A stretch of 64,000 nucleotides of DNA from Paramacrobiotus metropolitanus (lineage: Eukaryota > Tardigrada > Eutardigrada > Parachela > Macrobiotidae), in NCBI RefSeq assembly GCF_019649055.1, contig NW_026570283.1:558001-622000 (forward strand), read 5' to 3'. Positions 23,709 through 64,000 of this stretch are shown here, one piece after another. The notes under the pieces were generated by a model. The model ran no database searches. It had not been told where the DNA came from and worked only from the letters and a program-made list of their open reading frames with translations. Position numbers and translations under genes: made by a program. Within the stretch, counting starts at the first letter, position 1; each line of letters begins with the position of its first letter.

Positions 23709-24300
23709 TCCTCCCCCCTTAAATTTGCCACTGTCATCTACGCTCGCAAACTGATCAGGAATGAAACAACGAACGGATACAGTACTTAAGCACAAATTGT
23801 GCGTACTTCTAAATGACTGCTCTATTCCATCGCGGTTATTCACCAATCAAAACTGACCGGCAAAGCCAGGCCAATGAAAGCCAAGTGCATACTGCGCACA
23901 CGGGCGTATATGCGTGCGTGCATGGTGCGCCATATCCCGCGTAACATGTGACTCGTTGCTGCATGCTGTGAACATCAGAGTCGGGGCTTTATGCGCTGTC
24001 CGGTATGGCTTGCCCGCTGCCACTCGGCAGGTTGACAGAGGTGTTTGACAAAGGTGATATTAATCCATTTAGACATACTAAGTTGTTGTCGACGCAAGAG
24101 CTGCTTTCGATTGCTTTCCGAATTTCGTGATTTTAGTTTTGAATGTGGTATCGGCTACCATCGCCATCAATTTCATCGCTGGTTTAAATTTCAGGCTACT
24201 CGTATTCCTGTGATAGTGGAGGAATTTACGCCGAGTTTTTTGTCCAGTATCAGTGCAGTGCCATTACTACAGTATTAGGCAAGGACCGTCGTCTGCAAGA
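23709..24300. other. Divergent promoter region between G and A, with conserved block
   Basis: This spacer separates G (-) and A (+). Bases 23885-23944, read on the minus strand, resemble 33001-33068 between B and C: both share GCGGGATAT, GCACCATGCAC and the following GCAC-rich tract. No exon is seen. A shared regulatory element is inferred. Confidence 0.5.
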
Positions 24301-26416
24301 ATGGATGGCAAGGGGATGGAGAAACTGTCCGGTGCGGTTGGGGATTCGACGGAGCACGGCCTGAGGCAGTATTCCACCGGACCGCTTTTATCGTCCCCTG
24401 TATGCGGCAGCGAACTCTCCCCGCCGTCGGAACCCCTGGATAAACAGCGCCAGCTCGAAGCGGAAGTTGTGGACTTGTTGACCCATCATGAACTGGCCAG
24501 AACCGACGAGACAGTAGACGGTGTCTTAGTTTACTGTGCCAAGTACACCTTTCAGAAGAATCCACAGAAATTGCGATCGTTGGCGTGGAACGATTACGGT
24601 CAGGGGAAACTGGACGGGATGGGTGTGGCACGGACTGGCCACGCGCTTTCCCCGCTGCCAGTGTGGTTGGAGAACGGCGTCGGACTGGAAGTGTTCTGTA
24701 AGTGATCATTCATCGTGCTGTAGATGCCACAGTCAACAGTCTGCGCAACGGCGTTGTGTCTGCTTTTATAAAAATCGTTTAGAATTCCGCCAATACCACT
24801 TTTGTACCGGGCAAAATAGTACTTGTGGGCCGAGGCGCTGTTACGAATTTTTGTTTCCGGTTGATGTAAAATGTCGTGGATGTATTGCAGTTAAGGAAAG
24901 AGTTGCGACACAAGAAAATGACTTTACTCGTGGCTATTCTAAGCCTGGTTTCGAAATTCCATGGGAAGCCAGAATCCAGCTAAGCCGCGTGCCGGACCAG
25001 TGCAGCCTGACGGATGTGCAGCTGGGTTTCGCTCATGTCGATCATCTCGAAAATCCCACCGCCACGGTGGAAATTTGGGAAACTCATGCCACCAACTTGT
25101 CCCACATCAACAGCAAACTGGCGAGTATTGACAGTCAGACCTTCTCGGAATGCGGCCAGGATCTGGGTATCTTCCGTGAAGCCTACTGTATCGTTACCAT
25201 GCGGGTGCCGCTGCGGCGCTTGCTGGGAGACAAGCTCCACGCATTCCGGCAGACCTTCCCGGACCGTCTGGCGTGCTCCTACGACTTGGGCCATACGGGA
25301 ACGGATACTGTGACACTGAAAACGCGAGATGGCAAGATAGAATCCCATCGAGAAATCCTGGTTAGTGACCTACTGGCTAATAGTGATATTTAATTTCTTT
25401 TTGTATTTCATTCATTTGTTTCAAATTATTTAACAAATATAACTTTACGCGCGTACAGTGCTCAAAAACTGAGAAGGTTTTGGCTGAGAGGAAATTTAAG
25501 TTACAGTATGTTCAGATCTGCGCGCGGGTGCGTAGATGCTGAGCATCTACGCACTAGAAATATACACAGCATTTTGTGCTCTTCTTATTCTTTTATTAAA
25601 AGGGTGCATGAGACTTGCCGTGGTCGTGGACAACTTTCAAATGACTTCGCTCAATCCTGCTTTCATTTATGTGAATAACGATTGGATTGTCATCGCTAGG
25701 TTGACCTTTCTCCCAAAACTCGGGCTATTTTCGGAGAGAGACCGCTTGGAAAAGTTATCTTCTACGAACTGGACTGTAGACTGGATGCCGCCTTGGCGGT
25801 TCTGGATGCGGCCGTAGCCAAGCACGAATCCCTGCCCATCGATCCGCACCGAGCGTCTCCGTTTTTCCTGTACGAGGCGATGAAGTTGGCGTTGAGTTGG
25901 GAGATTCCGCAGCTGACCCTGTGGACGCAGGTGGCGTTTCTGGAGCGCTTGTGCCGTCCGGACGATGGCATTCTCGAAGCGGTCCCCGTCCTGGATGCCG
26001 TCCGTGTTATCCGTGACCACGCCGATGCCCAGGCGGTGGGCGGCCGGATGATACTGTGCGGACTGGTCATGGTGCTACGCAACCTACATTCTCCGGCCCT
26101 GGGATGGGAGCTGGACGAGCTGAAAAATATCATTGCCCGGAAGCCGGCGTTGTGGAAGAACGTTATTTACCCGACGCGGTTGGAGAATGATTGTGACCTT
26201 ACCGTTGAAATCAATCCTGGTAGAAAAATTTATTTTAGCGTTAATTTGGCTTACTGGGTGCGCCAGTTGAAAGTACAGATTCAGGAGATCGAAGAGCTTC
26301 CCATGGATCAGCAGCGACTGGTATTTGACGGCCAAATCATGGAAGACGAGCGTACCTTGGCGGACTGCGGCATTGGCCACCGTGATTCGGTGCAGTTGCT
26401 CCGCGACTGCAACTGA
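24301..26416 (+). CDS. Member A: BTB-like protein with C-terminal ubiquitin-like domain, intact
   Basis: Exons are 24301-24697, 24891-25360 and 25700-26416, giving 1584 nt and 527 residues, with GTAAGT donors and AG acceptors. Residues 1-290 (exons 1-2) match no domain I know; the conserved cores are SLAWNDYGQGKL and [16 protein letters not shown]. Residues ~280-385 resemble BTB/POZ: SHREIL, then VDLSPKTRAIF, and a helical LYEAMKLALSWEIPQLTLW. The last ~75 residues are ubiquitin-like, with [13 protein letters not shown] in place of ubiquitin's [13 protein letters not shown], and LADCGI. Its tail is more diverged than in B, C and E, ending LLRDCN. BTB proteins are often Cul3 adaptors; that role is an inference. 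It is the head-to-head partner of G. Confidence 0.8.
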
Positions 26417-27818: not shown

Positions 27819-28909
27819 TCAGCAACCTCTCAGCCGGAGACACAAATGCACGGTGGCGTTGGTGACGATCCCACAGTCCGCTAACGTAACATTGTCCTCC
27901 AACGCTCTACCATCAAAAACCAATCGCTGCTGATCCTGGGGAATACCTTCCTGATGCCAAATCAGGCACTTCAACTGGTACACCCAATAGGCCAGATTAA
28001 CGGTGACCATGCGACTTTTGCCCGTAATGTTCTTAATGCCAATGTCGGGCAACAGCCGCGTCGGCAGGAAGACGCTCTTCCACAATGCCGGCTTCTCTGC
28101 AAATTCCAATGCTGGAATTACTTCCCCCATATTTTTCATTTACTCATAATCCGATAGGGCTTCTGACCTGTACAACGGTTTATAAAGAAACAATAACATT
28201 TTTAACTGAAAACTGGTTTAAACCCATTCCATGCAGGGAATCCAAAAATCCCAATAATTTAGTCAAGCGATAAAACAGCTTAAATAGGCAAACGTTTCAA
28301 TAATTACCTATCTAATTATGCATGTCGGCGTCAAAAGACCATTACAAATCCATTACACAGTTTGTTTCTAACGGTTCTACATGTTATCAATTTCAGCCTT
28401 ACCGGCAATTAACGCCATCAGCTCATCCAGTGTCCAGCGCGCGGCTGGTGAATGCAAGTAGCGCAGCGCACCAACCAGTGCGCACAGGATCATCCGACTG
28501 CCCACCGCCCGGGGATCGGCATGGTCACCGATGATCCACACCGCGTCCAGAACGGGAATTTGATCCAGATTTGCCACCGGATGACACAAGCGCTCCACAA
28601 ACGCCAACTGCGTCCACAGTTGCAGCTGGGGAATCTCCCAGCTCGACACCAATTTCATCATCTCGTACAGGAAGAACGGAGCCGCTCGGCGGGGATCGGT
28701 GGGCAGGGATGCGTTCTGTGTCATGGCCGCGCTCAACACCATCACCACGGCCGCCTTGCTGTAGTTCGTTTCGTAGAAACGGACTTGTCCTGCCTCTCCC
28801 TCGACGAAGATCGCGCGTGTTCTCGGAGAAATACGAACCTAAGATTGCAAGTCTTCGAATTACCAAACCTGATTAAAATCAACGCAAAACGGAACATTTC
28901 TTCGGGGGC

Positions 28910-29175
28910 TTAACCCAGGAAAACCGGGTACTAGAAGGGATGGGACTATCGTTTCGAAAATTGGTAGTTTGGGATAGAAAAATTCAGTTAAGAAAAAAAT
29001 ATTTTTTTCAGAATTTTAGCGACCATAGGTCAAGCAGGAGATGACCATGTCGAGCTAACACGCTTGGGAACCATGTTGCTCCGACATGTTATCCATTGCC
29101 GTTTATAACAGGCGATAGAAAAATCGCACAGAATATGCCAATTGCTTAAACGATAGGTCTCAACGAGTACTTGAA
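28910..29175 (+). repeat. Interspersed repeat copy 1 (inverted copy at 55440-55690)
   Basis: GGAAAACCGGGTACTAGAAG, GTCAAGCAGGAGATGAC, CCGACATGTTATCCATTGCC and AAAAATCGCACAGAAT recur in the same order on the minus strand of 55440-55690. It lies in intron 2 of member B and is probably an unclassified non-autonomous element. Confidence 0.8.
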
Positions 29176-30824
29176 CACAGGTGCATTACGATGGTCATCA
29201 AGATGACCAGTGGTCAAGGAAAATTTAGAAACGAAAAAATCCTAATATTCACCAGTACATAAGCGCTACTACGATATTTCGCAACAGTTGGTCACTTTTG
29301 CTCTACGGTTTGGACAATTGGTCACTTGACCTATTGTTGACCACAGTCCTGGTGACGTCTACACAGTGGAAGTAATACTATTCCAGGTTGTGCAACCGAA
29401 AACCGTAGCAGAGATAGCTAGCAGGAATCATAGACAACATATTCTCAAAGTGTTGTACAAGTGACCAGTTGTGAGAAAACGAGGGTATCGCGCAGTAGGG
29501 TCAATAAAGCCCTGCCAAAAAGCCTACTCGTACAATCTAACTTACGTTTAAACTTTATAGAAAACAACAAATGCTCGTATTTACAAAGGAAGGCAGTTCT
29601 GCTAGTGGACTTGTGGTGGTAGACTAGCCGACTCCCTAAGCATCACGAATTATCCAAATTGTGTGGGAGTGATTGATTATACTTTGCACTGTCTACGTCG
29701 GCACCGCTGCTAAATAATGCTCAGCTGCATAAACGGAGGCTGCCTTTACTCCCAAATGCTCTCTTCCGTTATACCAACCGCTTTGCACAGACTGGTTTCT
29801 AAAGGTTACAAGCGCTCATGAACCGGAAGGTTCAAATGTTTTTGATGCTCACTATGCGAAGTGTAGACACGAGTTAATAATTTTTGCAAGATTTCACACT
29901 CATTACTACAGTGTAACTCCGATATAATCTGCAAAGAATATATGATTTTTCTCTGGAACAATGGAGCAGCTGGTAGGTTACAGTACATGGCAATAATGGC
30001 GTTCTATACGCAAGCAGTTACACTGCAAAATTTTTTGAATTCTGATTGTTCCCGGTAGTACGGGTCATAGCAATTTTAGAGCTACTCACAGCGGTCATTC
30101 CGCAACTTGTTTGCCTTTTCTTCACATTAATTTTAACTGCGTTTAGTCAAAAATTACGTTTTTCGAATTTCCGGTCATCGCTGACCAATGGTCACTTCAC
30201 TGACCACTATGTACAAGTCAGTTATTACAGCTTTTTTTTAGCTTTATTTTGATTGTTTATTGTATCTTGTAGGACGCTTCTGTCAATCAATATGAATTTT
30301 TGACACTTATTAATAAAATAGTACCGTGCCCAACCGTGTCATAACCGACATGGGATTTTCAAGTAACCAGTACTAGCCAGTGGGCGTTAATTTTCGGAAC
30401 TTTGCTTCATGTTTTTATAAAACTCCGCAATTAGTTTTCCTGTGATTTTTTTGGTAATTATCTGATGTGGGGTGGCTGTACAGACAAGCAGGACCTCCGG
30501 GAGCCCAGTTTGGTCAGTTTTGATCATGTTTGGTCACCCTCTGGACCTTCCGGATATGACCCAGCTTACGGTTATATATTTTAAACTGTCGTCTAACATA
30601 ACTTCTTTGAAACAAAACCAACAGAAATAATCTGTGTTCATAACAACGGACTACAGAGAAGAAGTCCTCTACCATGTCGGTCTAACACGCATAGTGTGGA
30701 ACGGGTTAAGAGTGAAATAAAAAACACCATTTTCGTAAAATAAAACAAATACTACCTAAAGTCAATTTAAAGAGAGAGAAATGGAAAAGAAGAAAGGACG
30801 GAAAGAACGGGAATAAATGGCGAA

Positions 30825-30915
30825 AAAATGCAGAATCGACTGACTTTCCTGCGTCTGCAAAAATGCAGAATGACTGACTTTCCTGCGTCTGCGTGTGTCC
30901 TGCGTCTGTCTGCGT
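30825..30915. repeat. Minisatellite-like repeat, two ~34-bp units plus a short tail
   Basis: AAAATGCAGAATCGACTGAC followed by TTTCCTGCGTCTGC occurs twice in tandem (the second copy lacks one C), then shorter CTGCGTCTG words follow. It lies in intron 2 of member B. Confidence 0.75.
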
Positions 30916-31990
30916 CTGGATTAAGCAATTCGAAGTACATATAAAATTCTCTCTAAAACTGACTGTTGCAAAGAGCTGCCTACAAATATTTTTCGAAAAG
31001 TAAACTTACTATATAAGTTATATAACGTAAGTATCTACACGTTTAACGGAAGGGAAGTGACAAAATGCAGAAACGTCTTCGATTATTCATTTCTAGTTTT
31101 CAACCATTTTGAAGCCTAAAAACACACTGTTCATTTTATATTTATTCATTCTACATTATTTGAAATTTCACCTTTGGGTTTTTTTGAAAACTTCTTAAAA
31201 CTGTTGAGATGGTGAGCGTATACGAACCAGGATTTCGCGATCCACCTCGATCCGACCCTGTCGCGTTTTGAGGACCACATTATCCGTCCCTTTCAAGGCA
31301 TCCACCTCCGCGAGGGCGGGACACTCCGGGATGGTCAGCCGGAATGCACTGAGCATTTCTCCCTGCAAGCTCCGCAACGGCACCCGCATAGTGACGAAAC
31401 AGTAGGCTTCACGGAAGATGCCCAGTTCTTGGCAGCATTCCGAGTAGGTCCAACCCGTGATGTTCTGCAGCGCGCTGTTGATGAAGTCCATGTTCCTGGC
31501 AGGGTTCGACTCCCGTTTACTGATAAAAACGGTTGGACTGCCGTGGTGGTCTGGGTTAATAAAGGCCAGTTGCACTGCCGTCAGGACACAGGTGTCCGGA
31601 ACCCGCTCTAACTGGATCCTGGCTCGCCATGAAACTTCGAAACCACGCTTAGCGTCGTTACCCGAAGAGTGCTGTCGATTTGTCGCCACTTTTTTCTCGA
31701 CTGCAAAGGATCAGTGGTGTACACAGTGCTTTAACAAGAAGCCCAGAAACAACGGTGGCTTCAACGGTTGTTCTGTGTGTTCGACAAAGCAAATAATTTT
31801 ATTAGCAAGTTGTTGAAGGCAGCGCAATAATTTTACAAACAGTTTATTTTGTCTTCTTGAAGGTGGATTAGGCTGACAAAACTCTTGTCATATTTTTGAG
31901 CAGATCGCCGTTTTGGAATGCGTTACTACACGGCGAGATGCAGCCATGCAGGATTAATAAATTAGTACATGAGTTAAAATTAATAAATTC

Positions 31991-32029
31991 TATATTACTG
32001 GTGGTACGGAATCTACCACCAGTAATATA
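31991..32029. repeat. Perfect 16-bp hairpin
   Basis: Arms TATATTACTGGTGGTA (31991-32006) and its reverse complement (32014-32029) are separated by a 7-base loop. It lies in intron 1 of member B. Confidence 0.9.
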
Positions 32030-32696
32030 TGTATCTGCTTGATGTATTGAGCAGCCGCCCTCGGTGATTTTACCTTCCCTTTTCCTTTATCTTTGTATTT
32101 TCCCCTTTTTGGGGAATGAATCCTTTTGTGGGAGACCCATGTTCTCCCACCAATAGATTCATCTGCTATTTCGAGGGGGTTTTAGGCCTCCCTCCTGATA
32201 TTGGTAAAGGCACAGGGATGAGGGAGCCATCAGAATACGACGTCCGATGATCTGCACTCACAAAACACTTGCAGTCCCACGGCATTCTCTAGCCACCCTG
32301 GCAAAGGAGAAATTTCGCGACCAGTCCCGGCACGTACACGTAGCAGTTGCCCCTGACCGTAATCATTCCACGCTAACGACTGCAAGTCCTGTAAATCCAT
32401 CTGAAAGACGTACATGGCACGGCACGTCACGACACCGTCATCCCTCGCGACCATGCTGGACTCCTGGCTGGCCAACTGGTGATCGGCCAGCAAGTCCAGT
32501 ACTCCCGTTGCTGCTGCTCAGCCAGAAGTGGGGAGTGCGGAAAGGGTAAGATGTCCCGTGCAGGCGATGATGGCTTAATTCGGGGTGCATACAGCGAGCA
32601 TTCGCTGTGCGAGACCTCCTGGTACTCAGTCGAATGCCGTATTGTGTAGCCATCCCCCACAACACTGGATGGCGTCTTCTTCCCTTCACCGTTCAT

Positions 32697-33608
32697 TTTT
32701 ACAGCGCTCGTCGGCTAAATATTAAGAATACTGGGAACCAGGACTCAGATGAAATATTATTCATAAGAAAACGGTGGGAACTGCATGAGACTTCAGATTC
32801 CTAAGTCCGTCGCGACGGCTAACAGCTTATCCGAGAAGGTTCTCGCCGATAAATGCCTGCCGGCAGTTCATTGTGTTCGCAGTACACTGACAAATTGCAA
32901 TATCCGAACCCAGCAAAGCTTGCAAGACCCAGAAAGTCATACAACACAACATTGAACAGTGTCACTCACTAGTCACTAACGAGTGATGTCGAGTGCAACG
33001 CTGTGCGGGATATAGTGCACCATGCACACCCACATAAACGCACGTGGCACCAATGCGCACAGAAAAGGCACGTGTGTGACGCCTGGTGGATCGCCTCGAT
33101 ACGACAGCCACCTGTCACAGACATGCCCAAAAATGTGGTAAAATCGATTGGAATTTTTCAGTTTTCGGTCGTGCTTATCGATCGACCGAGAGCTGGATGC
33201 ATTTACTGCGCAAGCACAAATTAATTTCTTTTGTGTGCTATATATGTCTGAGATTATTAATTCTAGTTCAGATCTAAAGATACCCGTATTCTTTTAATTC
33301 TGCAGGAATCTGCTGAGAGTAAGATAGCTGCAGTTGTCAGAGCAGTGCCATCAGCAAAGAACCTTCGTCTACTCCATTGATCTGCGGAGACTTCGCGGTG
33401 TAAGTTGGGAGCCGTGAACCGAGCGGTGAACGAACGGATAAGGACACGTGAGAGTACCCGTTTTAAGGGCTTGGCTACTCGTAAACACATCAGCCCGATA
33501 ACCTTAACAGAAATAGGAAGCTTTTGCAGTTTTGCTGATGCAGTGTGTACTCTAAATTGGGTTCATCTGGTTCTCTGTTGTGTTTGATCAGGTGACGAGC
33601 GTGCAGAA
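32697..33608. other. Divergent promoter region between B and C
   Basis: It holds the 5' flanks of two head-to-head genes. The block 33001-33068 resembles the minus strand of 23885-23944 between G and A. No other feature is supported. Confidence 0.5.
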
Positions 33609-35149
33609 ATGGACGGCAACGTAGTGGAGACGCAGTCTGATGCCGATAAGAATTCAACGAAGCACAGTCTGATTCAGCTTGGTAGCAATCCAATTCCATC
33701 GGCCTCCGAACTCGGCAGCGATGCATCTCAGCCACTGGAACGTCTGGATGAGCAACGTCAGCTCGAAGAAGGAGTTCTGGAACTGCTGATCCACCATCAA
33801 CTGGCCAGCATCGAAGGGACGGATGACGGTGTTTTGTGCTGCATTATGTACACCTTTCAGAAGGATCTACCGGACTTGCGATCGTTGGCGTGGAACGACT
33901 ATGGCCAGGGAAAACTGCAAGAAGCACGTCTGGCACTGACTGGCGACAGTATTTCCCCGCTGCCGGCGTGGCTGGAGAATGGCGTGAGATTGCAAGTGTT
34001 CTGTAAGTGCGTCATCTTATAGATGGCATGTCCTGAGGGGCCTATTTCTCAACGATCGCCGAATTCAGTTACATCACTGAAAAAACTGTTAAAAATTAAG
34101 GAATTGGCAAAATTTCTTTCATTTGACAATTTTTTTAAATTAATTCGATTTAGAACTTCAAAAAGTGACATTTTTCAATGAATTCGCTTTATTCCATCTG
34201 CTTGCTAATTTTAAAAGCTTTAACATAAATTGGGCGATTGGAAATTAAATTTAACATAAATTCGCTATTTTGCAGTTTTGCGGAAAACGGTGACGTATAA
34301 ATTTTACTAAATTATTTCATTTGAAGGTTTTATTAATTCTGTCAAAGCATATATGTATAATAAATTCTAATTTCGACGCAGTTTCGATGCCAAATTTCAT
34401 TAAATCCGCTAAGCTGTTCAAACCTGGTGAACTGTGCAGGCTTTTCTTCCCGGGATAGTCATTGTGCTTTTAGCTTTTTTTTATTTCTGTTGGAAGAAAT
34501 GCCATTGATGGTTTGCAGTTGAGGAAAAGGTGACGGCGGACGAACCGCCCTCAAGCGATGACTCGTCTGAAGAAGGTTTCGAAGTTCCGTGGCGGGCACG
34601 GATCCAGCTGCAGCGAGTTCCGGACGGCTGCGTCTTCACGGTAGTGCAGTTGGCCTTCATCAATCCGGACAATTGTGGAAGCCCCACCGTCGAGTTCACA
34701 ACGCCGCCGATCGATGCCACCAACTTGTACTGCATCAACAACGCATTGAAGAACATTCAGGGCCAGACGTATTCTGAATGCTGCCAGGAGCTGGGTAACT
34801 TCCGTGAAGCCTACTGCTACGTCACCATGCGGGTGCCGTTACAGCGTATTCTGTGGGAACTGGTGGCGGCCTTCCGGCTGACCATCCCGGAGGGTCCGCG
34901 ATTTCCGGAAGGGGACGCGGATGGAACGGATAAGGTGGTGCTGAAGATGCGGAACGGGCAGATCGAGACGGATCGAAATACCATGGTTAGCTCTTTTTGA
35001 TCTTGAAACGCTGCGTTCATGAAAGTATGCTTAGTATTCTTGTTTATTTCGTTCAACGATACAGGCAGCTCCGTGAAAAGGGGCGGTTTTAAAATGAAAA
35101 AAAAAGTTTTACTTCTTTAAGAATGCTTTGTGAACCGCTTGTTTTTTAA

Positions 35150-35831
35150 GGAAAATGGCCCGGTACATAGTGTCCAAAATGGGGTACATACACTAAAACC
35201 TTCGCTTGCGCGCTCTCCGAATCACTATTTTGCAATAATTTATGTCATTCTAAAGCTAAATGATTTGTATAACTGAAAACCGTTTGCGCGCTCAACATTC
35301 CGTTGCTTAGATATGAAGTATTAACATGGGCAAAAAGTTTAATTGCATTGTTGTGTACTAAAAGTGTGGTTATTGCCCGATCTTGTTGAAACTTTGCTTT
35401 AAAAGGCATATGGCCATGAAGTTGAAAGTGAACCAATATCAGATCCATAGCATTTTTTTCCGATTTTAAAATGGCTTTCAAACATTTTAAAATTCATCTT
35501 AAAATTACAGGAAAGTGCTATGAATTTGAAATTGGTTCACTTTTGACTTTGTGGCTATGTGTCTTTTGCAGCAAAATTTCAAAAAGATCGGGTAATAACC
35601 AGACTTTTGGACCTTGGTACACTACAATGCATTTAAACTTTTTGCCCATTTTAATGCACCATATCTCAGCAACCGGATGCTGCGCGCGCAAACGGTTTTC
35701 AGAACAATGTATACAAATCATTTAGCTTTAGAATGACATAAAGTATTGCAAAATAGTGATTTGGAGAGCGCGCAAGCAAAAGTTTTAGTGTATGTATCCC
35801 ATTTTTGACGCTCTGTACCGGGCCATTTCCC
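35150..35831. mobile_element. TTAA-flanked palindromic fold-back element
   Basis: Ends read GGAAAATGGCCCGGTACATA (left) and, reversed, GGGAAATGGCCCGGTACAGA (right). TTAA flanks both (35146-35149 and 35832-35835), the piggyBac target. Almost the whole 682 bp is one imperfect inverted repeat with arms of roughly 320 bp around a short centre near 35480-35500. There is no transposase gene. It lies in intron 2 of member C. Confidence 0.85.
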
Positions 35832-36663
35832 TTAAGTGAATGGCAGCTGTCTTGGTTTTTTCAGTAACCCATTGGTTTACGTCTGTAATCTGTATTCTAT
35901 ATTTACTTCCTCGTTTTTCCCGTTTGATGATAGTAACTGTCTAATGTTTCTCCAGCCAGGTTCAAAACCCAGTGCTGGGATATCCTCTTAGCCGGAAATG
36001 GACTACTTATCTGTTCTGATACGAATCTTAATAATTTTTCAGTTCATAATCGGCTCAAAACTGTTTTTCTACTTTAGGTCAGGCTGTCTCCAAAAGCGCG
36101 CGGCGTCTTCGCAACAAGAAAGCAAGGGAAGGTTTCCCACTACGAATGGGATTACAGTCTCGAGGCCGTTCAGGTCATCTTAGACGCGACCGGAACGGAA
36201 CGCCAATCCCTGGCCATCGACCCACATCGTGCGGATCCGTTTCTCTTGTACGAGGCCATGAAGTTGGCGTTGAACTGGGAGATTCAGCAGCTAACAATGT
36301 GGACGCAGGTGGCGTTTGTAGAGCGCTTGTGCTCTCTGAACGGCGTCAGTTTGGAACAGATCCCCGTCCTGGAGGCTGTCCGTCTGATCTGCGACCACGC
36401 CGATCCTAAGGTGGTGGGCAGTCGGATGATTCTGTGCGTGCTGGTCACTATGCTGCGCATCCGGCATTCACCAGCCATGCGCTGGACGTTGGATGAGCTG
36501 GAGAATTCAATTGCCGGCAAACCGGAATTGTGGAAGAACGTCCTCCAGCCGACGCGCTTGGTGACCGATACCAACGTTTTCATCACAATCCAGATGCGTA
36601 CCACTCTCACTGTCGCGGTGAATTTGGGCTATTGGGTGTGCCAGTTGAAATGCCGGATTCATG

Positions 36664-36917
36664 TAATATATGATCGTTTCTCCTACATTATACGTAACGG
36701 AGAATACCGCCAAATCCCATCAATGATCTTTACTGTAGCCGCACACGATAGATAATGATTCGCTCAATCACAACTTCATCATGGCGCTGAGAAATCAGCA
36801 TAGAAAACAGACGTCTTTAGACACAGATAGCTACGTGAAGATAGTTCACAACAATTGCATAAACGCCGGATTACGCCGGTGAGCAACACTGTATACATGA
36901 CTATGCGTCACACAGCA
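36664..36917 (-). repeat. 3' LTR of the 6.4-kb element
   Basis: It is identical to 42774-43027 except one base. The purine-rich tract on the internal side (element sense AACGGGAG) is a short candidate polypurine tract. Confidence 0.93.
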
Positions 36918-37061
36918 CTCCCGTTCTTAAGTTTGAAGCACGGCGAAAACCAATCACTTTGAGAAACGGAACATAACTTGAACGATTGGATGACCGTAAT
37001 GAAGGAAAACGCTATATAAAAAATTACATGAAAGAAGAGGTGCAAGCGTTAAGGCAAGGCA

Positions 37062-40000
37062 TTACGGCGAGGGTTCCCGTAGGGTCCGGTTACGAAGTGT
37101 CCGGATAACGGGGCGATCGGTTTCGTCGACGGGCTCGTCCGGTTTCCTGGCAGGACGACGAGGTTTGGTGACGCAGTCCCGCTCAATTTCCACGCGCAGC
37201 TCGGGATCCACGTCCTCGACGGGAATGTCCCACTGTGAATCAGTGTCACCCATTAAATCCAAATCAGACAGAGGCTCCGTGAACAGTTTTAGTCTCTTTA
37301 CGTGGACAACAAGAGTGTTTTACCACGTTTTTTAGTACGCACAGACTGGATCTCGTAGTTAAGCTTTGATTTACGGCTAACCACTTTGTACGGTCCAAAG
37401 TAATGTGCGATTAATTTTGGAGACAAACCAACAGGAGTTACCGGCGTATACAATAACACCAAATCACCGATTTGGAATTCACGCGGTTCTCTTTTGATAT
37501 TGCCGGTCAACATATAACCAGCTTGGACATTCTCAATATTAGCTTTTGCAACATCACTAGCCAGTTTAAGACGCTCTACGAGAGCCTGACTGTATTCGTG
37601 CATGTTATTCAAATTGTTATTCGGAAGTGCACCAAGCTGTGCGTCCATGACTGAACGGCACTCACGCCCGTACAACAAATAAAATGGTGTTTTATTTGTC
37701 GAGGCTTGCTTACTGGTGTTGTAAGCTGTAGTGACATATGGGAGATGTAGGTCCCAATCTTTTTGATTATCACTGACATACAGGCTAAGCATAACGGCTA
37801 AAGTTTTATTGAACCGCTCAGTCAATCCATTACACTGTGGATTGTACGCTGTTGTGTTCAGATGCCGCGTTTGACATAGCACTGGAACTTCCTGAACTAC
37901 ATCTGACAGAAATGGACCACCTTGGTCACTCAAAATTCTTGACGGCGCACCGTGACGCAGTATTACTTGATGCACCAAGAAATTAGCAACTGCAATAGCG
38001 GTCTGCGCCGGAATAGCTTTTGTTTCCACATATTTTGTCAAATAGTCAGTACAGACTATGACATACCGGTTGCCTTTAGCGGTACGGGGAACAGGACCAA
38101 AACATCCACTCCCACCATCTCGAATGCAGTGCCCACTGGAATTGGTTCAATAAGACCACCGGGTTTATCAGTTGGGACTTTACGAAGTTGACATTGTCGA
38201 CAGCCGCGTATGTACTTACGCACATGATCACGCATGCGCGGCCAAAAGTAGCGCTGACGCACACGAGTATACGTGCGCCAAAATCCCAAATGACCGGATG
38301 TACGCTCGTCATGACAAGCGAACAATATGTCACGTCGCAAATGTTTTGGTACTACGAGGAGCAGTACGTCTTCCCCGTCAACTAACGCTTTGCGATACAA
38401 CAAGTTGTTTTTCATGGTATAACACACAGTGTCGCGAGACACCAAACCGATTGCCAACTTGTCAATCACATCACACAGTCGTGGGTCTTGCACCTGTTCA
38501 TAGTGGAAATCTGGAGTGTCGGTCATGGCTACTAACATGTCCATTTCGACATCAGCACTGTCAGCTGGTTCGACGGGATGTCGCGATAGCGCATCCGCAT
38601 TTTGGTGACGTTTGCCGCTACGGTATACAATTTCAAAATTGTATTCTTGTAACAAGACCGCCCACCTGCTCAGACGACCGGCTAATTCACGCCGGCTCAT
38701 AAGCCAACACAGTGCACAGTGGTCTGTCACAATGCGAAACATCTTACCATACAAATAAGGTCGTAACTTTTTAACCGACCAAACAATTGCCAGACACTCT
38801 TGTTCAGTGACCGCATAATTACGTTCTGCGGGACTGAAACTTTGCTAACGTACGCCAACACCCGTTCGCAGTCACCCAGTTTAGATACTAAACATGCGCC
38901 TATTCCAAGGCCGCTAGCATCGCAGTGTAGCTCGATCTCAGCATTTGGATCATAATGAGCTAAAATCGGCGAACTAATTAGTGCGTGTTTGAGTTTTCGA
39001 AAGCAACCATCTGTTCGGAAGACCACACAAACGGTTCGGTTTTTCTCGTTAACCGTACCAGCGGTTCCGATAGACCGGCAAAATCCCGTACAAACCGACG
39101 AAAATACGAACAAAGTCCTAAGAACGACTTTATGTCCGTGACATTTTCTGGTACTGGATAATCTGCGATTGCCAACAGTTTATCGGGATCGGGACTAATA
39201 CCATTACGGTCAACGACATGACCAAGGTATTTGGTGCAATCGGACGCGAAAACACATTTTGATGGTTTAAGCACAATACCTGCGTGGCGAAGCTTGCGCA
39301 GTACGGCATCAAGGTGCTCCATGTGCTCTTCAAACGTCTTCGAATAGATGAGTACATCATCTATGTACACTATAACAAACTGCCATCTGAATTCATTCAG
39401 TATTTTGTCCAATTGACCTTTGAAAGGTCGCCCCGGCGTTACACAAGCCGAAGGGCATACGGCTGAATTCATATAAGCCGTCAGGCGTCACAAAAGCGGT
39501 ACGGTCCTTGCTGGACTCCGCTACGGGGATCTGCCAGTATCCCCACGCCATATCTAAGGAAGTAAAATAAGCGCACCCACCTAACTGATCAAGCGCGTCG
39601 TCCAAGCGGGGCATTGGGTACACGTCCTTCTTGGTAACAGCATTGACCCGGCGATAATCAACACAAAACCTCGTTGTGCCGTCTCGCTTGTGTACGAGTA
39701 CAATGGGAGACGACCACGGGCTACAGGATGGGGTCACAATGCCTTGGCGGAGCATTTTATCAACTTCTGTACGAATGACAATACGCTCGGCCCACGATCG
39801 CCGGTAAGGAGGTTGGGACACTGGCAATGCACTGCCTGTGTCTATAACATGCGAAACTCCTTTTACTTCGCCAATAGGGCGTTCAGCAGTGGGAAACACG
39901 CTTACGTGTTTGCGCAACACAGCGTGCAACTGTTCAGTTTGATCGGCAGTTAAATTTGCACCACACTGAATTTCTGGGAGTTCACACGTTTCAACCACCG

Positions 40001-40638
40001 AGCACTCTGGAACGCGGTCAACATACATTGGTGTCGCAGACGCAATATTCTGACCCTTACCGATTGTTTGGGTCATGCGAGAGAAATTTGCACACGCCAA
40101 ATAACACACATTGTTGACAATTTTGACTAGCGCGTTTGATGTACGTAACCCTTTTGAGCGAACGTGTTAGCGTTTGGGAAACTATAAACTCCATATTTTC
40201 TGGTTTCACACGGCCAGGAAATAGATTACGGTTTAGTTGACATTTCACCCAAGCTACGTGACCAGCGGGAATGTGCACTTTGCGACTTGCAACAAGATTC
40301 CGCGCTTTCCATGGCCTGAACTGTTCGCCATCACGTTCATCAAAGCGCCGTATAGTACGACCGGCATAATCAATTACTAGATCCGTTCGCATCAGAAAAT
40401 CATTACCGACCAATAATTCACGATCGTACGTGTCTAGCACAAGTACGTTAATTTGGTGCGAACAGTTTGCCAATAACACATCAACACAAACAGTGCCGAC
40501 AGGCGATATCAATTTGCCACTAACACCTTTAACGGGCCGCCCGGTATATGACTGAATACACAGATCTAACATCTGTGCACAGTGCACACTCATAATCGTT
40601 ACAGCGGAGCCGGTGTCAATCACAGCAGGCACGGCCAT
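37062..40638 (-). pseudogene. Protease-RT-RNase H-integrase region of the 6.4-kb element, frameshifted
   Basis: Protease: VIDTGSAVTIMS at about 40620, the aspartyl DTGS. RT: pieces at 40109-39393 and 39472-38978 with VIDTGSALPVSQ, YPMPRLDDALDQL, TSLDMAWGYWQI and VYIDDVLIYSK (YIDD box). RNase H: ELHCDASGLGIGA and RIVTDHCALCWL. Integrase: HHCC finger (SGHLGFWRTY then CRQCQLRK), then D in VGVDVL, D in LSDQGGPFL and E in GLTERFNK. Each block is intact, but the blocks lie in changing frames, so no continuous polyprotein can be read. The C-terminal tail is acidic and Pro-rich (37262-37062). Confidence 0.85.
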
Positions 40639-40859
40639 ACCATTAACATATGCCGTAGTGCAAACTGGAGCCGGAACAGTTGAATCGTCATTTGGTTCTT
40701 CTATCGGAAATGCATCGAAAGGAAAACCAGCAAAATCAGGGGGATCAGACGTATGAGCAGCTAAACCCCTGTACTTAGCTACTCTCTGGAGTTTAAATTT
40801 CCCTCACCTTCCGACGGCAGAGCATTTCCATGCTTCGCGTGTGCCGCTTTACGTTCCCG

Positions 40860-42344
40860 CATGCGATCCCAACACCGGCTTTCTTGGTGACCTTGCCGAC
40901 CGCAGAAATCACACCGCGACTTGTCGTCTTGGTTCCGTTCAACCGTCACAGCCGGTTTGCGGGATTCGCCATTGCCGCCGTTGCGTGTACCACCACGGCC
41001 ACGTCCACGAGCACGACCTCGGCCACCGCGACCACGGCCTCCACGGGCACCAGCAGCGCCTCCCGTACAAACGTTTGCGTCAACACAGGCGCGGCTGACT
41101 GAGTCTCGGGAGGTGTCGATGAGCCGGCAGCCATCTGGAACTCTTGCTGCAAACGGGCAGAGATAGCTCTGTCCACAGCCTGTTGAAATTCACTGGACTG
41201 CAGCACGTTTGACACGTTTGCTGAACTGACATCACCGGCAGCAGTTTCGTCGTCTTCACTTTGCTTCTGCTTTGCCGAGACTTCAGCTGTCAAAATGACA
41301 TTTGTGTTAGAACTTGTACGTTCCGAATCAACTTTTAACACCTTGAAACGTGTCAATAACTCTTCCGGTGTTGTCGGATTAAGCACCGCCATATGATTAC
41401 GTAGGCTTGTACTAAGACCGTTCAACAGGTAGCGCACTTTCATTTCGTTTGACATCGCAGTATCGACTTTATGACAAAGGTCAATGATAGAGTAGTAATA
41501 TTCAACCAGTCTCTCTTTATCCTGATTGAATTTGCGATTTTGCAACTTGTTCTGATAGTCCCACTTCTCATCCTCACTGACAAATTCTGTGAGAAATGCA
41601 GTACGCAAAGCGTCCCAAGTCGCAAACGGCTTTCTGAGGTTATACCACTGCTTAGCGGCACCAGCCGTCAAGTAGAACGCAAACCGTTCATTTTGGTTTT
41701 GTCCAGCCAATTCGACATGGTCGCTGCTTCTTCAAACTCCTTCATCCATTCACGAGCGTTATGCTCTGAAGGCTTGAATTTATCGCACTGCAGCGGACCA
41801 CTTACTGGAGCGTCTGTTGCGACCTTTACAAGACTCTGTAGGCCATCAGTAAGTGCTTTAACTTGTGCATCCATATTGACACTTTCAGTATTATTAACGT
41901 CAAGGAGAACCGTTGCAGTACGTTCTGGTATATCGGTCAAGAAAGGTGACTGTGTACCTGTCTCAACGAGTGGCGAAGCGTCACTTTCAAGTATAACAGC
42001 CGACTGTGTTGAGCTTAATGCGGTAACAGGCTCATCGTCATCTGATATTAATTCTTCATCAGATTTGATTTCGCCCTGGGCACGCCTGACCTTTTTTCGG
42101 TTTTGGCAATTCGCCTTCTGCAAACTCTGCTTGACCGTCTGAACGCAACGTCCGTCCTCCGGCTTTTTTTTAATATGTCTGCTTCTGTATACGGAAAAGT
42201 CTGTGTAGCAGCTTTCGAACTTGAAGCTACAGTTATTGAACTTGCGACAGGCTTATCTGCTGCTGCAGTTGCAACTGACTTATCTGCTTTCTTAGTTAGC
42301 GGTTGCGTTGATTTACCGCTCTTGTCGGACATTAACGTCGACAA
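40860..42344 (-). pseudogene. Gag region of the 6.4-kb element, frameshifted
   Basis: Three overlapping pieces (42344-42048, 42123-41668, 41710-40946) lie in different frames. The middle shows a capsid-like retrotransposon gag core (AAKQWYNLRKPFATWDALRT and DYQNKLQNRKFNQ). A CCHC zinc knuckle, CDFCGRQGHQESRC, is encoded near 40912-40871 after an Arg/Gly-rich stretch. Gag packages the RNA. Confidence 0.8.
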
Positions 42345-42773
42345 TTATTTAACCAAGAATAGCATTACAAATAATGTTGGATTGCGCCTGGTGCAGCATG
42401 TATCCCAACACGACATTAGCAGTCAAACTACCAGCAGATAAGAGAATTAACAGTTGAGTTGACCACGAGCAACAGCTCATCAACTTTCTGATCGGTGCTA
42501 CTATACAGTTCAAAACTTTACACATTTTGAACAAAAGCAACAACCAAATATTGTACGATATGCGATTCTTGTACGAATATTACATTCAAAAGAACTATCC
42601 GCTGAATAACGGAATCACATACCCAAAGCCGCTTCCACCGCCTTTAAACGTTCATTACAGGTGTCGTAAAGATGGGTATAAAATGGATCAATAACGGGAG
42701 CCGTCATATCGACTGAGAACAGAAAGGTCACCGGGCTATTACGGTTGCTAAACGCATCCACCCAGGAGCGCCA

Positions 42774-43027
42774 TAATATATGATCGTTTCTCCTTCATTA
42801 TACGTAACGGAGAATACCGCCAAATCCCATCAATGATCTTTACTGTAGCCGCACACGATAGATAATGATTCGCTCAATCACAACTTCATCATGGCGCTGA
42901 GAAATCAGCATAGAAAACAGACGTCTTTAGACACAGATAGCTACGTGAAGATAGTTCACAACAATTGCATAAACGCCGGATTACGCCGGTGAGCAACACT
43001 GTATACATGACTATGCGTCACACAGCA
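42774..43027 (-). repeat. 5' LTR of the 6.4-kb element
   Basis: 254 bp, start of the element on the minus strand, followed by the primer-binding site at 42773 and below. Its outer edge abuts the displaced end of gene C. Confidence 0.93.
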
Positions 43028-43168
43028 CATGACATAAGAGGCATTCCCATGCATCAGCAGCGACTGATATTTGCCGGTAGACAGTTGGAGGACCATTTTA
43101 CCTTAGCGGATTACGGTATTACCGCGCATGCAACACTCCATCTTGTTCTACGTCTAAGGGGATGTTAA

Positions 43169-47495: not shown

Positions 47496-47506
47496 GCAGA
47501 AGATGA

Positions 47507-48472: not shown

Positions 48473-49640
48473 GCCAGAAAACTATAAGCCAGTTCCAAAG
48501 CCAAGATTCTCAAAACTACTCAAGCCAAAAATCCATAAGCCAGATAACAAATCAGAACAAAGCCAGCACGACAAGCAGGTAGATCTTTGGTTGCGATACC
48601 AGGTCTACGTAAGGCAGATGAAAGAGTTGACACTCTACCAACAGGAAACTAAGAAGCTTTATGAAGGCATCCTAACCAGTTTAAGCCAGCACAAACTTAA
48701 AGGCATTAAAGCATCACGTGGAAAACGGATTGTAAAATATCGCCAGCACAAAATCCATGATGATATTGTATCTGAATACAATCTCATGGAGAAAGAACGC
48801 AGAACCATCAGTAAAGCATTCAAGGCAAAGCAAATGGATAAACCAGATTTCCTCAGGACTCCCATTACAGTCGTTTATAAGTGGCCATACCAGAAATTTA
48901 TCGGTTTTGATCCAGCCATTTTTGGTTCATTTAATTATGAGCCAATAAACCAGGCTAAGGCCAGCAGACCGCCAATGCGAGTCAATAAGCATGTGTTATT
49001 TGATGAAAATCTTTTACACATTCGCTTCTTTGACAAGCACAAGCCAGTCCCACTAAAGCCAGTTAAAAATCTCAGTCCAATTAAAGGGATATTACCGTTG
49101 AAGAAGTTATATCAGAGTAAGCCAGATAATCGCCAAATCGATAAGCCGGTTACATACAGCCAGATACTTGAAACCTTTGTCCATCAGCCACAGGAGACGA
49201 TAGTCTATAAGCCAGTTGTCGATAATCGTGCTTCTTATTATTGTCCCCTTGAGCCAGAAAAATACCCAGAACAATTTCCTGATTTATTTCCAGCTCAAGA
49301 GCCAGTTGATATTAAGCCAGATACTACAGCAGAAATTAAATCAGAACAAACTAAGCCAGGTACTATAAATTTGAAGAAACTCTTGGAAAAATTTAAGAAA
49401 CCATATGTCTTACGCATACAGTCAGCTTTTGATAATTCCTCAGTTAAAAAGCCAGAAATTCTACAGCAGCCAGAAGTTGTACAACAACAACTGGTTGAAG
49501 TGGAATCGCAACATAAGCCAGTCCAAATCAGTTTACTTGATGAGCCAATAATCGCCACATGCGACCAACCATGTTTACAGCCAGAAACTACATTGCACAG
49601 TACATCGCATGGTAGTTCGCGTGACGTAACAGTACTCCGC
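48408..49640 (+). CDS. Lys/Pro-rich spacer of the 11.7-kb element
   Basis: About 400 codons lie between protease and RT, dominated by the dipeptide Lys-Pro and by Gln, with no domain I recognise (PVPKPRFSKLLKPKIHKPD is typical). The Lys-Pro codons are mostly written AAGCCA, which follows from the CCAG/GCCA word bias of the whole element. The true frame joins the RT lead-in after a shift near 49640. It could be a linker that tethers the polyprotein or a low-complexity expansion. Confidence 0.5.
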
Positions 49641-52600: not shown

Positions 52601-53654
52601 GATGAATTTCTTCCGTTTCTCGTTGCAGCGTACAATCGTACTGTTCAGAAAACCATCCGGCATTCACCTTTTTACATGTTGTACGCCAGTGAACAGTCAC
52701 CCAGGTGACACCATCACTCAGACCAACTTGCCAGATGATTATGACAGCATTGACGACTACTTGGAGAAATTCAAGTATCGTTTGAATGTTGCTCATGATG
52801 CAGCCAGAGCATACATCGACGAAGACTTTCAGCGAAAGGCAGAAACCTACAATCAGAACAAAGAAAAGCCAGATTTTACCGTAGGCAGTTTAGTAAACCT
52901 CAGGCAGGAGCAGAAGAAAGGCGAATGTAAGGACCTTCGTTTTAAATACGACGGCCCTTTCGAAGTCGTCAAATTTCCATCAGAAAACGAAGTAGCCATT
53001 ATTCGACGTGATTACCCGTATGACTCAGATGTCGTCGCTATCGATCGTCTGAAGTCGTACACGCCAGAAAACCCGGAGTTCAGTAAGCCAATTAAAACCC
53101 GAATTATCCTCAGTGATATCGATAACGCGAAACAACTGAAGGCATCTAAAACCAAGCGTGATAAAAATAAACAGCCAATTTCACCCAGTAAACCAACAAC
53201 AGGACTGTTAAAAGTCAAGTTGAAGGTTCCGAAGAAGCCAGATGAAAACGCCAGTCCAACTGTTACATATGCAGATAACACTGCAGATCAGCCAGCCAGT
53301 GACTCTAGTACTGATTCGGGACTTACAGCCCAAACCAGTACGAGCTCCGAAGCCAAATCAACCAGTGGAGAGTCGTCTCCACAGCCAGCAGTTAAACCCA
53401 GAAAATCTTCGAATCGAAAATCGAAGAAAGCCAGTCCTGACACAGATTCGTCGGAATCGTCTAGCGATTCTGATGGAACTTGGACAATTACCGCCAACAG
53501 CAAAGGCAAAGTCAAAATCAAACGGCATCGTCAGACGCCGAATGATCTTTTGACTCAACCCCTTGATTCAGAAACCGATGCAGAGGACGCAGATCTCATT
53601 GAGAAACTTACTCGTCCAAAGCGTCGTAAACCACGTTTTCCTAAAGCCAGTTAA
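49640..53654 (+). pseudogene. RT-RNase H-integrase of the 11.7-kb element, broken by frameshifts
   Basis: Lead-in ETVSHVIDTGDAKPVKS; shift near 50310-50340. RT (50341-52431): YPLPNADELLDAV, TFDCSSGFWQIP with the first catalytic Asp, MPFGGCNGPATFQ, and AYRDDIIVA, a YRDD box (50764-50775). RNase H: VIECDASTVGIGAVLQQ, ELECLAVVYAIS, RTDHQALANL. Integrase: HHCC finger (GGHLGIQKTSH, CQKCQFRK), D in QVDLKGPL, D in NTDRGSHF, E in LVERQMQ. A shift in a CTTTTTG run near 52385 and another near 52690 separate integrase pieces. The tail (to 53654) is Ser/Lys-rich and ends RRKPRFPKAS. No env follows. Confidence 0.85.
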
Positions 53655-60383: not shown

Positions 60384-62262
60384 TCAGCATCCCCTCTGTC
60401 GCAGAACAAGATGAACGGTAGAATGAGCGGTAATACCGTTGTCGGCTAAAGTCTGTCCATCCTCCATCTGTTGACCGGCAAAAATCAGTCGCTGCTGATC
60501 CGGAGGAATGCCTTCCATGTCATGAATCCGGCATTTCAACTGGCACACCCAATAGCCCAAATTCACCGCCACGGTGAGTGTCTTCCCCGTCAAGGTCATA
60601 ACGAAGACAGTGGTATCGGGCACTAAACGCGTCGGATAGATGACGTTCTTCCACAACGCCGGCTTGCTGGCAATCAGATTCTTCACCTCGTCCAGCGTCC
60701 AGCGCGCGGCCGGTGAATGCAGGATGCGCAGCACAATCACCAGACAGCAAAGGATCATTCGCCCGCCCAACTCCTTAGGATCGGCGTGGTCGCGGATAAG
60801 ACGGACAGCTTCCAGGACGGGGATCTGCTCCAGATTGACGCCATCCGGCTGGCACAAGCGCTCCACAAACGCCACCTGCGTCCACAATATAACTCGTCCA
60901 ATTTCCCAGTTCAACGCCAACTTCATCAGCTCGTACAGGACAAACGGATTGGTTCGGTGTGCGTCGATAGGCAGGGATTCGTGATTCGTTCCGGCCACGT
61001 CTAAAATTGTCTGAACGGCTTCCAGACTGTAATCCAATTCGTAGTAAGTGATTTTTCCTTGCTTTCTTGCAGCGAAGATACCACGCGCTTTTGGGGATAC
61101 GCTAACCTAGGGACGATGCGCGAACGTTCAGGACCTTGACATTCACAACATAGTTCATAAATTTAAAAGATTAAATTTAATTTAAAAAATTAAAATTAAA
61201 AAAATATAAAAAATTTATTATTTTAAATTACGAATTATGTGAAACGTAGTGGATTTAACCTCCACAACGAGTATTAACTAGCGAGTGACTAACCAGAATC
61301 TGCCGATCGGTCTCTATCTGGCCGTCTCGCATCTTCAGCAGCACCTTATCCGTTCCGTTCCATCCATCCCCATCCTGGATTGCCGGACACTGCGGAATGG
61401 TCTTTCGGAAGGCGGTGAGCATTTCTCCCAGCAAGCGCTCCAGCGGCACCCGCATGGTGACGTAACAGTAGGCTTCACGAAAGATACCCAGCTCCTGGCA
61501 GCATTCCGAGTACGTCTGACCCTGGATGTCCCGAAGGTTCCTGTTTATGCAATTGATGTTGGTGGTGTGGGTCGCCGGCATTTTAACCTGAACGGAGGGA
61601 CTTCCGCAATTGTCCGGATTAATGAAAGCCAGCTGCACCTCCGTCAGGATGCAGCCGTCCGGAATGTGCTGCAGTTGGACCGTGGCACGCCACGGAACCT
61701 CGAAACCACGTTTCGACTTGTCGCCGGAGGAGTGCAGTTGTTTGGTCGCCACCTTATCCTCAACTGCAAAGCATCAGTAGTCAGTTTGAATCGAAAGTAA
61801 TGCGCTTGGAAAATCGATGGTGGTAACGATAGGGAACCATCAGGCAAAACCAGGTAATAACTTACAGAAAACTTGCAGTCTGACGCCGTTTTCCAGCCAC
61901 AATGGCAAAGGGACAACACTGCCGCCAGTCTCAGCCACACGAACGCCTTCCAGTTTCCCTGGCCCATAGTCATTGAAAGCCCGCGATCTCAAGTCCTGCA
62001 GTTCCTTCCGAAAGGTGTACTTCACGCAGCACACGATGACATCGTCGTCCGTCCCGTTGGTGCTGGCCAGTTGATGGTGAGTCAGGAAGTCCAAAATTCC
62101 CGTTTCCATCTGGCGCTGTTCATCCAGACGCTCCCGTGGCTGTGAGGGTACGCTGCCGGATACAGGAGCCAATTGAGTCGGAGTACTGCCGTGCTGAGCC
62201 AGGACGTTTCGAGTTGAGCTTCCCACAGCACTAGTTTGCTTCTGCACTCCCTTGCCGTCCAT
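60384..62262 (-). CDS. Member E: BTB-like protein with C-terminal ubiquitin-like domain, intact
   Basis: Exons 62262-61866, 61763-61294 and 61106-60384 give 1590 nt and 529 residues. Residues 1-289 are the family's unrecognised N-terminal half. Residues ~280-385 are BTB-like: [52 protein letters not shown]. The last ~72 residues align without gaps to ubiquitin residues 7-76; I count 42 of 70 identical, including [20 protein letters not shown] and HLVLR. Ubiquitin positions L8, I44, H68 and V70 are kept. K11 and K27 are kept, while K6, K29, K33, K48 and K63 are replaced. It ends RGC instead of RGG. It is head-to-head with F. It may be a Cul3-type adaptor with a built-in ubiquitin mimic (inference). 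Confidence 0.85.
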
Positions 62263-63243: not shown

Positions 63244-63293
63244 TGCGCATGCCGTTTCACTTTTAGTCCCGATCAACAAACGAGCGATAAGTA

Positions 63294-64000
63294 ATGGCCG
63301 GCAACGGGATGGAAACGCCGTTCGATGTCGTGGGGAATGGCTACACGATCCGGCATTCCACGGAGCACCATGTCGTCCTGCAAAGCGTCAGCCCGTTTAA
63401 TGTACCGGACATCATGCCAGCGTACCCTGCGCGCGACAGCGCAAACGCTCCGCACAATCGGCATCGTCTGGCTGAACAGCGGCAGCTGGAAACGGGAGTG
63501 CTGGACTTGCTGACACATTACCAACTGGCCAACATGGAATCGGGGGTGACGGATGACAAAGTCGTGACGTGTCGCGCTATGTACACTTTCCAGAAGGATC
63601 TTCAGCACCTGCAGTCGACAGCGTGGAATGATTACGGTCAGGGTGCCCTGCAGCGCGTTCGTGAGGCATGGACGGGTCACGAAATTTCTCCCTTGCCAAC
63701 TTGGCTGGAGAATGGCGTGGGACTGCAAGTGTATTGTAAGTGTTTGAAGTAGCTTTGTGTACAACGGCTTCCCAATGCTCCAAAGACAGAGCAATGAAAT
63801 CCCAGTGCAATGATACATCCAGTTGGAATCGTTCCGGGTAGCTGCAGACACATATGTATTTCCCGAAACATCGTACACTACTTATCTCCACAAAAAATTC
63901 CCGTAGTTTTAAATGAAAGTTTGAAGAAGAAATTTAGCGTTTTAACTTTCAACGAGTCAACTCGGAAATCTCGATATTACAAATGTGAATTCCAGCTGGC
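63294..64000 (+). CDS. Member F: exon 1 of a BTB-ubiquitin-like gene, runs off the window
   Basis: Exon 1 is 63294-63735 (442 nt, ending in phase 1) with a GTAAGTG donor; it encodes 147 residues. Its start MAGNGMETPFDVVGNGYTIR is shared with B (and in relic form with G), not with A, C and E. The core LAEQRQLETGVLDLLTHYQL and TAWNDYGQGALQ is common to all members. The remaining 265 bases are intron; exons 2 and 3 should lie beyond 64000. A TATA box is at 63236. Confidence 0.75.

Follow-up and report, generated by a model that had tools for sequence, protein, structure and literature searches.

Gene E of Paramacrobiotus metropolitanus raises the question of why a BTB-like protein should end in a near-ubiquitin domain whose last two residues are Gly-Cys in place of Gly-Gly. 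The gene lies in a window of 64,000 nucleotides (C63:558001-622000 of the 169.8 Mb assembly), to which all positions below refer unless another contig is named. The first-pass annotation had suggested two answers, a non-conjugated ubiquitin mimic in a ubiquitin-ligase adaptor or a tail with its own chemistry. We compared E with its relatives in the same genome and in protein collections, and we weighed these answers against others.

Gene E and the order of its domains

Gene E runs on the minus strand from 62262 to 60384, and spliced translation of its three exons gave a product of 529 aa. Both introns were of the GT..AG type, and a protein search found the product identical (100%) to RefSeq LOC129593769, which bears out the locus and product length of the first-pass annotation. 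The features of the gene were as follows.

61866..62262, minus strand: exon 1, with the start codon, the N-terminal tail and the first half of the N-domain (first intron GTAAGT/TTGCAG; identity to RefSeq LOC129593769)
61294..61763, minus strand: exon 2, with the second half of the N-domain and the start of the BTB-like part (3' intron GTTAGT/CCCTAG; RefSeq identity)
60384..61106, minus strand: exon 3, with the remaining BTB-like part, the linker, the ubiquitin-like domain (UBL) and the stop (single open frame)
61477..61509, minus strand: an 11-residue stretch of the N-domain containing SECC, one of the most strongly conserved segments in the family, with Cys220 at 61501-61503 and Cys221 at 61498-61500
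60795..61347, minus strand: BTB-like domain, residues 272-393, across the second intron (hhalign against a BTB profile)
60387..60614, minus strand: UBL, residues 454-529 (PF00240, E 3e-20; 44 ubiquitin identities)
60384..60392, minus strand: Gly528-Cys529-stop (GGA TGC TGA; codon variation and site rates across the family)

Ubiquitin-type domains were the only domains recognised in E by Pfam. PF00240 matched residues 456-527 with 72.2 bits, compared with a curated cut-off of 25.4, and the overlapping PF11976 match had an E value of 8.6e-11. The 44 identities to ubiquitin extended over positions 2-76. The 42 identities claimed earlier for positions 7-76 proved exact on recount, and the Pfam E value places the match far beyond chance. 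As had also been described, L8, I44, H68 and V70 of ubiquitin were kept and K6, K29, K33, K48 and K63 were absent; K11 and K27 were kept as well. A conjugatable modifier presents a C-terminal Gly-Gly to E1, and E instead ended LRQRGC followed by a TGA stop.

The label "BTB-like" had been given by eye, and the evidence on it was divided. With an E limit of 1, Pfam BTB (PF00651) matched none of the 40 family rows, nor did BACK or MATH match any of them. A genome-wide search with Pfam MATH (PF00917) returned no match anywhere, and its controls were equally silent, so that little can be read from this outcome. In a profile-profile comparison, however, a BTB profile made from 15 loci of the same genome found by Pfam BTB aligned by hhalign with the family profile over 104 collinear columns, with a score of 30.2, a P value of 3.8e-4 and an HH-suite probability of only 36%. 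None of 200 column shuffles reached this score (highest 19.8), and at the same settings the reversed columns scored 13.7, the N-domain 15.0 (1 column) and the UBL 14.7 (12 columns). An earlier run with another option had given a score of 19.2, a P value of 0.0011 and a probability of 8%. The BTB-like nature of residues 272-393 is therefore supported, not proven, and because of this similarity a link of the family to Cul3 ligases is plausible. A large expansion of BTB in this tardigrade is evident from the same genome, which gave at least 151 exon-level Pfam BTB matches at E up to 1 (best 150 of 1033 candidates scored).

In E, the UBL and the greater part of the BTB-like region lay in the same open exon (60387-61106). 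In addition, single open frames of 404-496 codons at C400, C83, C158 and C37 took in the second half of the N-domain and continued to the UBL stop. These frames show, at the level of predicted products, that the UBL is fused downstream of the BTB-like part in the order N-domain, BTB-like, UBL, as first proposed, and they rule out that the UBL belongs to a separate gene. The genomic sequence contained no GG-containing extension after Gly-Cys; the stop was immediate, and the sequence downstream was unconserved across the family. Selenocysteine insertion or read-through past Gly-Cys was likewise ruled out, because all three stops occur and the downstream codons are unconserved.

The N-domain had no match of weight in Pfam (40 family rows) or among PDB sequences (best E 0.83 and 0.18), and a search of NCBIfam with three proteins gave, besides one chance match, nothing more than weak Rad23 hits in the UBL. 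Its comparison by hhalign with the stretch preceding BTB in other BTB loci of the same genome indicated no kinship (P 0.6). Among the matches listed from about 5.8 billion proteins, the only relative of E besides proteins of P. metropolitanus was P0013 from ENA. Word-based seeding with the best 8000 candidates at most limited the reach of these searches, and the silence of one of them is weak, as it returned P0013 alone and missed known P. metropolitanus members. P0013 is 395 aa long, contains the SECC motif and has no UBL in its model. The earlier statement that no described family has the order N-domain, BTB and UBL stands within the literature searched for that order, where the available text on Brassica MATH proteins (PMC3664471) describes none. 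A BTB orthogroup was named once, in a table, in the available text of the Hypsibius/Ramazzottius genome paper (PMC5531438), and the term BTB was absent from the accessible main text of the P. metropolitanus transcriptome paper (PMC11191345). The literature searched contained no natural Gly-to-Cys UBL end.

The Gly-Cys end across the family

A genome search with E gave at least 90 exon-level matches, some of them polyubiquitin (best 82 of 125 candidates scored). The family comprised at least 34 loci, some damaged, and ends were read at 34; C228, which had a degraded frame and no UBL that could be found, was left uncounted. Further members in the window were the following.

24217..26416, plus strand: member A (RefSeq LOC129593784, 527 aa), with the tail RDCN and Gly in place of Cys221 (SECGQDLG)
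27819..32517, minus strand: member B (RefSeq LOC129593772), with the UBL in its own exon (27822-28139) ending RGC and with SECC kept
33588..43168, plus strand: member C (RefSeq LOC129593771 in part), with the UBL split into 36078-36752 and 42941-43165, the latter ending RGC
63291..63749, plus strand: exon 1 of member D (RefSeq LOC129593768), the remainder of which lies beyond the window and ends RGC

The RGC ends of B and C and the absence of the motif from A agreed with the first-pass annotation. The RGC half of the member C UBL was located about 6 kb from the first half. Gypsy-like ORFs (37298-42252, minus strand, by eye) lay between the two halves, and the RefSeq model of this member continued into other sequence.

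Other elements of the window were recognised by eye. A second Gypsy-like retroelement (44946-53654, plus strand) had gag, protease, reverse transcriptase and integrase-like ORFs, and DIRS-type-like ORFs (5785-9496, minus strand) were recombinase-like and reverse-transcriptase-like. There were also hAT-like transposase ORFs (20960-23014, plus strand) and serpin-like genes at 3443-5027 and 11916-13394 (both minus strand), the second being one long ORF.

The exact Gly-Cys-stop end was found at 21 of the 34 loci, spread over two clades, and a GG-stop end at none. The remaining 13 loci ended in RDCN (A), KGCQ (C123), LVC (C158_148), VSR (C37_359), RKQ (C63_286), FIPL-type sequences (C83_217 and C83_224), FEQRG (C56) or RGF (C3_256), or had by appearance lost the end through small insertions or deletions in the tail (C38, C3_75, C3_250 and C63_627); this division into indel and non-indel losers is a judgement from reading the tail codons. 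At least five loci with the Gly-Cys end were damaged elsewhere or had a UBL in two frames (C, C63_635, C3_276, C83_1 and C1). Inheritance of the terminal Cys from a polyubiquitin tail was ruled out, with two polyubiquitin loci (L038 and L040) ending GG-stop. Another locus, L039 (C3:1400500-1404000), was separate from these; it was ubiquitin-like, divergent and tandem, and it ended PGG-stop. L022 and L023 (C83:212500-228500) formed a divergent branch of the family, with FIPL-type ends and no cysteines at the SECC position.

At the loci with the Gly-Cys end, Gly was encoded by GGA, GGT or GGC and Cys by TGC or TGT, and the stops were TAA, TAG or TGA. Codons and stops thus vary among these loci, and constraint therefore acts on the protein. 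Site rates in the UBL, with losers included, were obtained from 30 of the 33 aligned UBL loci (rows of fewer than 60 letters were dropped). Of 75 sites ranked from the slowest, Cys76 stood 11th and Gly75 15th, alongside core residues. Gaps were treated as missing data, and this favours the Cys column (22 Cys, 5 gaps and 3 other residues among the 30). The tail sites 73 and 74 were fast, ranking 62 and 61 of 75. Furthermore, six UBLs with just 16-21 ubiquitin identities still ended YGC, TGC, SGC or VGC.

The contact surface of ubiquitin was tabulated in the GC-ending loci with most of the UBL (n = 19), a set in which Gly-Cys is 19/19 by construction. L8 was found in 9/17, I44 in 9/19, H68 in 8/19 and V70 in 9/19. 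The earlier idea of a ubiquitin mimic consequently fits E and some of its relatives, but a patch of the I44 type is not family-wide. These counts also bear on the main rival that would act in trans, in which the UBL is a natural G76C ubiquitin whose terminal Cys would form an intermolecular disulfide with the catalytic Cys of E2s, HECT E3s or DUBs under oxidation, trapping or inhibiting them. Engineered Ub-G76C forms such disulfides, in the available text of the two reports with the SdeA DUB and, as cited there, with E2 and HECT enzymes (PMC10619426) and with Ube2S (PMC4734694), and E retains much of the ubiquitin surface. However, this surface and the LRLR tail were lost in much of one clade where Gly-Cys stays, and in the same available text DUBs differ in their reactivity towards Ub-G76C, and the cysteine that reacts may be another one, OtDUB being an example (PMC10619426). 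We consider such a trap rather improbable.

A tree of 33 of the 34 loci (C3_256 was left out) was built from the sequence that precedes the UBL. Gly-Cys occurred in 11 of 17 loci in one clade (support 99/96), in 10 of 12 in the other (92/80) and in none of the four outside. The label required at least nine changes on the tree, and its clustering was no greater than in shuffles (142 of 500 were as low). We read Gly-Cys as an old feature of both clades with scattered losses. Among 11 pairs, dN/dS was 0.19-0.61 in the UBL and 0.21-0.37 before it, with some dS values near saturation (up to 2.05); between E and A it was 0.29 within the UBL and 0.27 before it. Taken at the level of sequence, the comparisons show an expanded family under purifying selection, with a long-kept Gly-Cys at a predicted free C-terminus.

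Covariation of the end with Cys221

Cys221 of E, the second cysteine of the SECC stretch, corresponded to alignment column 225. It was kept in all 19 Gly-Cys loci with a readable motif, which leaves out two of the 21, C1 (motif deleted) and C83_1 (stop inside a CC-bearing motif). The losers counted were 12 of 13, C3_256 having no readable motif; Cys221 was changed in seven of the eight non-indel losers and kept in all four indel losers. That the latter still read ECC is as expected if their tails were lost first, and recently. In C56, a Cys was placed at column 225 by HMM alignment, within a scrambled motif. All four non-indel losers within the clades had changed the residue, to Gly in A, Asp in C158_148, Ser in C37_359 and His or Tyr in C123, where the motif falls at an apparent frame change and the residue is uncertain. 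Cys220 was kept in all four. The sisters C37_354 (ECC, GC) and C37_359 (ECS, VSR) differed in both sites.

Of 480 columns, column 225 alone combined invariance across the 19 tail-positive loci with a change in each of the four non-indel losers inside the clades; columns 112 and 186 were changed in three of these four. If changes are independent over the 55 comparable invariant columns, 0.029 such columns are expected by chance, and 9 of 2000 control quadruples of tail-positive loci showed one. Uncorrected for phylogeny, Fisher tests gave 3e-4 for all 12 losers (Cys221 present in five) and 9e-6 for the eight non-indel losers (present in one). Independent pairs were also compared. Leaving out the indel losers, three pairs on starred branches (five on all branches) were concordant in 2.8 cases on average and discordant in none (sign test p 0.25); with the indel losers, five pairs (nine on all branches) gave 2.3 concordant cases and 2.7 with no difference (p 0.5). 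This test discriminates little, because columns 112 and 186 go the same way (concordant in 1.9 and 2.1 of three pairs, compared with 0.8 for Cys220). The link between Cys221 and the tail is post hoc, and the independent events are too few for significance.

The exact Gly-Cys end was gone from three of the four losers within the clades, A (DCN), C123 (GCQ) and C158_148 (LVC), with a Cys persisting in the tail. A plain disulfide that lost its partner thus fits inexactly, and the data are better read as a function shared by Cys221 and the exact end than as a simple half-cystine pair. The suggestion of a tail with its own chemistry gains support from these data, because Gly-Cys evolves slowly beside fast neighbours and covaries with Cys221.

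The same observations have to be set against an ordinary lineage-specific BTB-UBL expansion, in which the tail would have been inherited under weak constraint and its link to Cys221 would be a coincidence among decaying copies. The loss of the exact end from 13 loci, the damage to several copies, the few independent events and the position of four of the eight non-indel losers, which are divergent members outside both clades, are what such an expansion would produce. It does not sit well with a Gly-Cys that is slow next to fast tail sites, with the synonymous turnover of its codons or with the low number of columns expected to match the pattern of Cys221 by chance. We regard an ordinary expansion as unlikely, if still a serious contender.

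Possible roles of the end and comparison with known systems

The reading we prefer, which we hold to be quite possible but short of probable, is that of a lineage-restricted, non-conjugatable UBL-BTB family in which Cys221 and the Gly-Cys end cooperate, probably by forming a latch within the molecule through a disulfide or a metal. Canonical E1 conjugation of ubiquitin needs Gly76. As residue 76 is Cys, the UBL would not be conjugated and may serve as a fixed interaction module in cis. The covariation suggests a common function for Cys221 in the N-domain and the Gly-Cys at the terminus. In the simplest mechanism, the flexible UBL tail would reach the SECC stretch and form a disulfide or a shared metal site with it, and we favour a latch that holds the UBL folded back against the N-domain. 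Such a latch could be redox- or metal-sensitive, and its opening could expose the UBL or the BTB surface. The cytosol is reducing, which counts against a disulfide latch.

Other uses of a terminal Gly-Cys were considered. During the processing of Hedgehog and of inteins, a Gly-Cys bond rearranges into a thioester, and by analogy the UBL might charge itself without ATP. The Gly-Cys bond would become a thioester, Cys221 would take the Gly75 acyl, and the protein would then bear a UBL thioester of its own, next to a BTB-type adaptor, and could transfer the UBL; we give this scheme the slimmest of chances. A lipid anchor, prenyl or acyl, would agree with the conserved free C-terminal Cys, but prenylation motifs are CaaX, CC or CXC ends, and none of these was present in E or in the other GC-stop ends listed, which makes an anchor highly improbable. 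The tail might also be that of a precursor, in which proteolytic loss of the one terminal Cys would leave a single Gly free for conjugation. A single terminal Leu is removed from the GABARAP precursor. In the available text of its report, UFM1 is trimmed of Ser-Cys and so acquires its one C-terminal Gly (PMC4936604), and in the present family the Gly preceding Cys is conserved. However, a residue that is cleaved off need not stay Cys, the modifier would be burdened with a 450-residue N-terminal load, the Cys221 link would be unexplained, and ubiquitin itself needs Gly76. We rate a precursor lower than the trap in trans, as a distinctly improbable case.

If the latch reading is true, the family would represent a natural, selected Gly76-to-Cys ubiquitin domain on a ligase-adaptor-like body, expanded within a single animal to no fewer than 34 loci. 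A ubiquitin fold would in this case carry a thiol handle at the end where conjugation normally takes hold, with Cys221 as the candidate partner, and the proposal can be tested. The host is a tardigrade, a member of a group known for stress tolerance.

Known Cul3 substrate adaptors with BTB domains include MATH-BTB proteins such as SPOP and BTB-BACK-Kelch proteins such as KLHL. The E family resembles them in its BTB-like domain behind an N-terminal domain and in its multigene expansion, whereas the lack of Pfam BTB, BACK and MATH matches among the 40 rows, the unclassified N-domain and the C-terminal UBL set it apart. OASL, Parkin, Rad23 and others are non-conjugated proteins with UBL domains. 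Like them, the E family has an integral UBL within a larger protein and no GG-stop end among its 34 loci; unlike them, it has a conserved terminal Gly-Cys, a free C-terminus, a BTB-like neighbour and a covarying cysteine. Elongin B and Elongin C combine a ubiquitin-like and a BTB-like fold that cooperate in a cullin ligase. They are two chains, whereas E is one, and the likeness drawn here is one of fold pairing.

With the engineered ubiquitin G76C, as presented in the available text (PMC10619426, PMC4734694), E shares Gly75-Cys76-COOH on a ubiquitin fold; its UBL is, however, natural, part of a larger protein and apparently kept by selection. The UFM1 precursor, as described in the accessible text (PMC4936604), likewise combines one Gly with a Cys at the end of a ubiquitin-like fold, but it is a free modifier ending Gly-Ser-Cys, whereas in E the Cys directly follows Gly in a fused domain. 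The known kinds are therefore BTB-type adaptors and integral UBL domains, and the predicted family is a variant of these with a conserved Gly-Cys end and a candidate partner cysteine.
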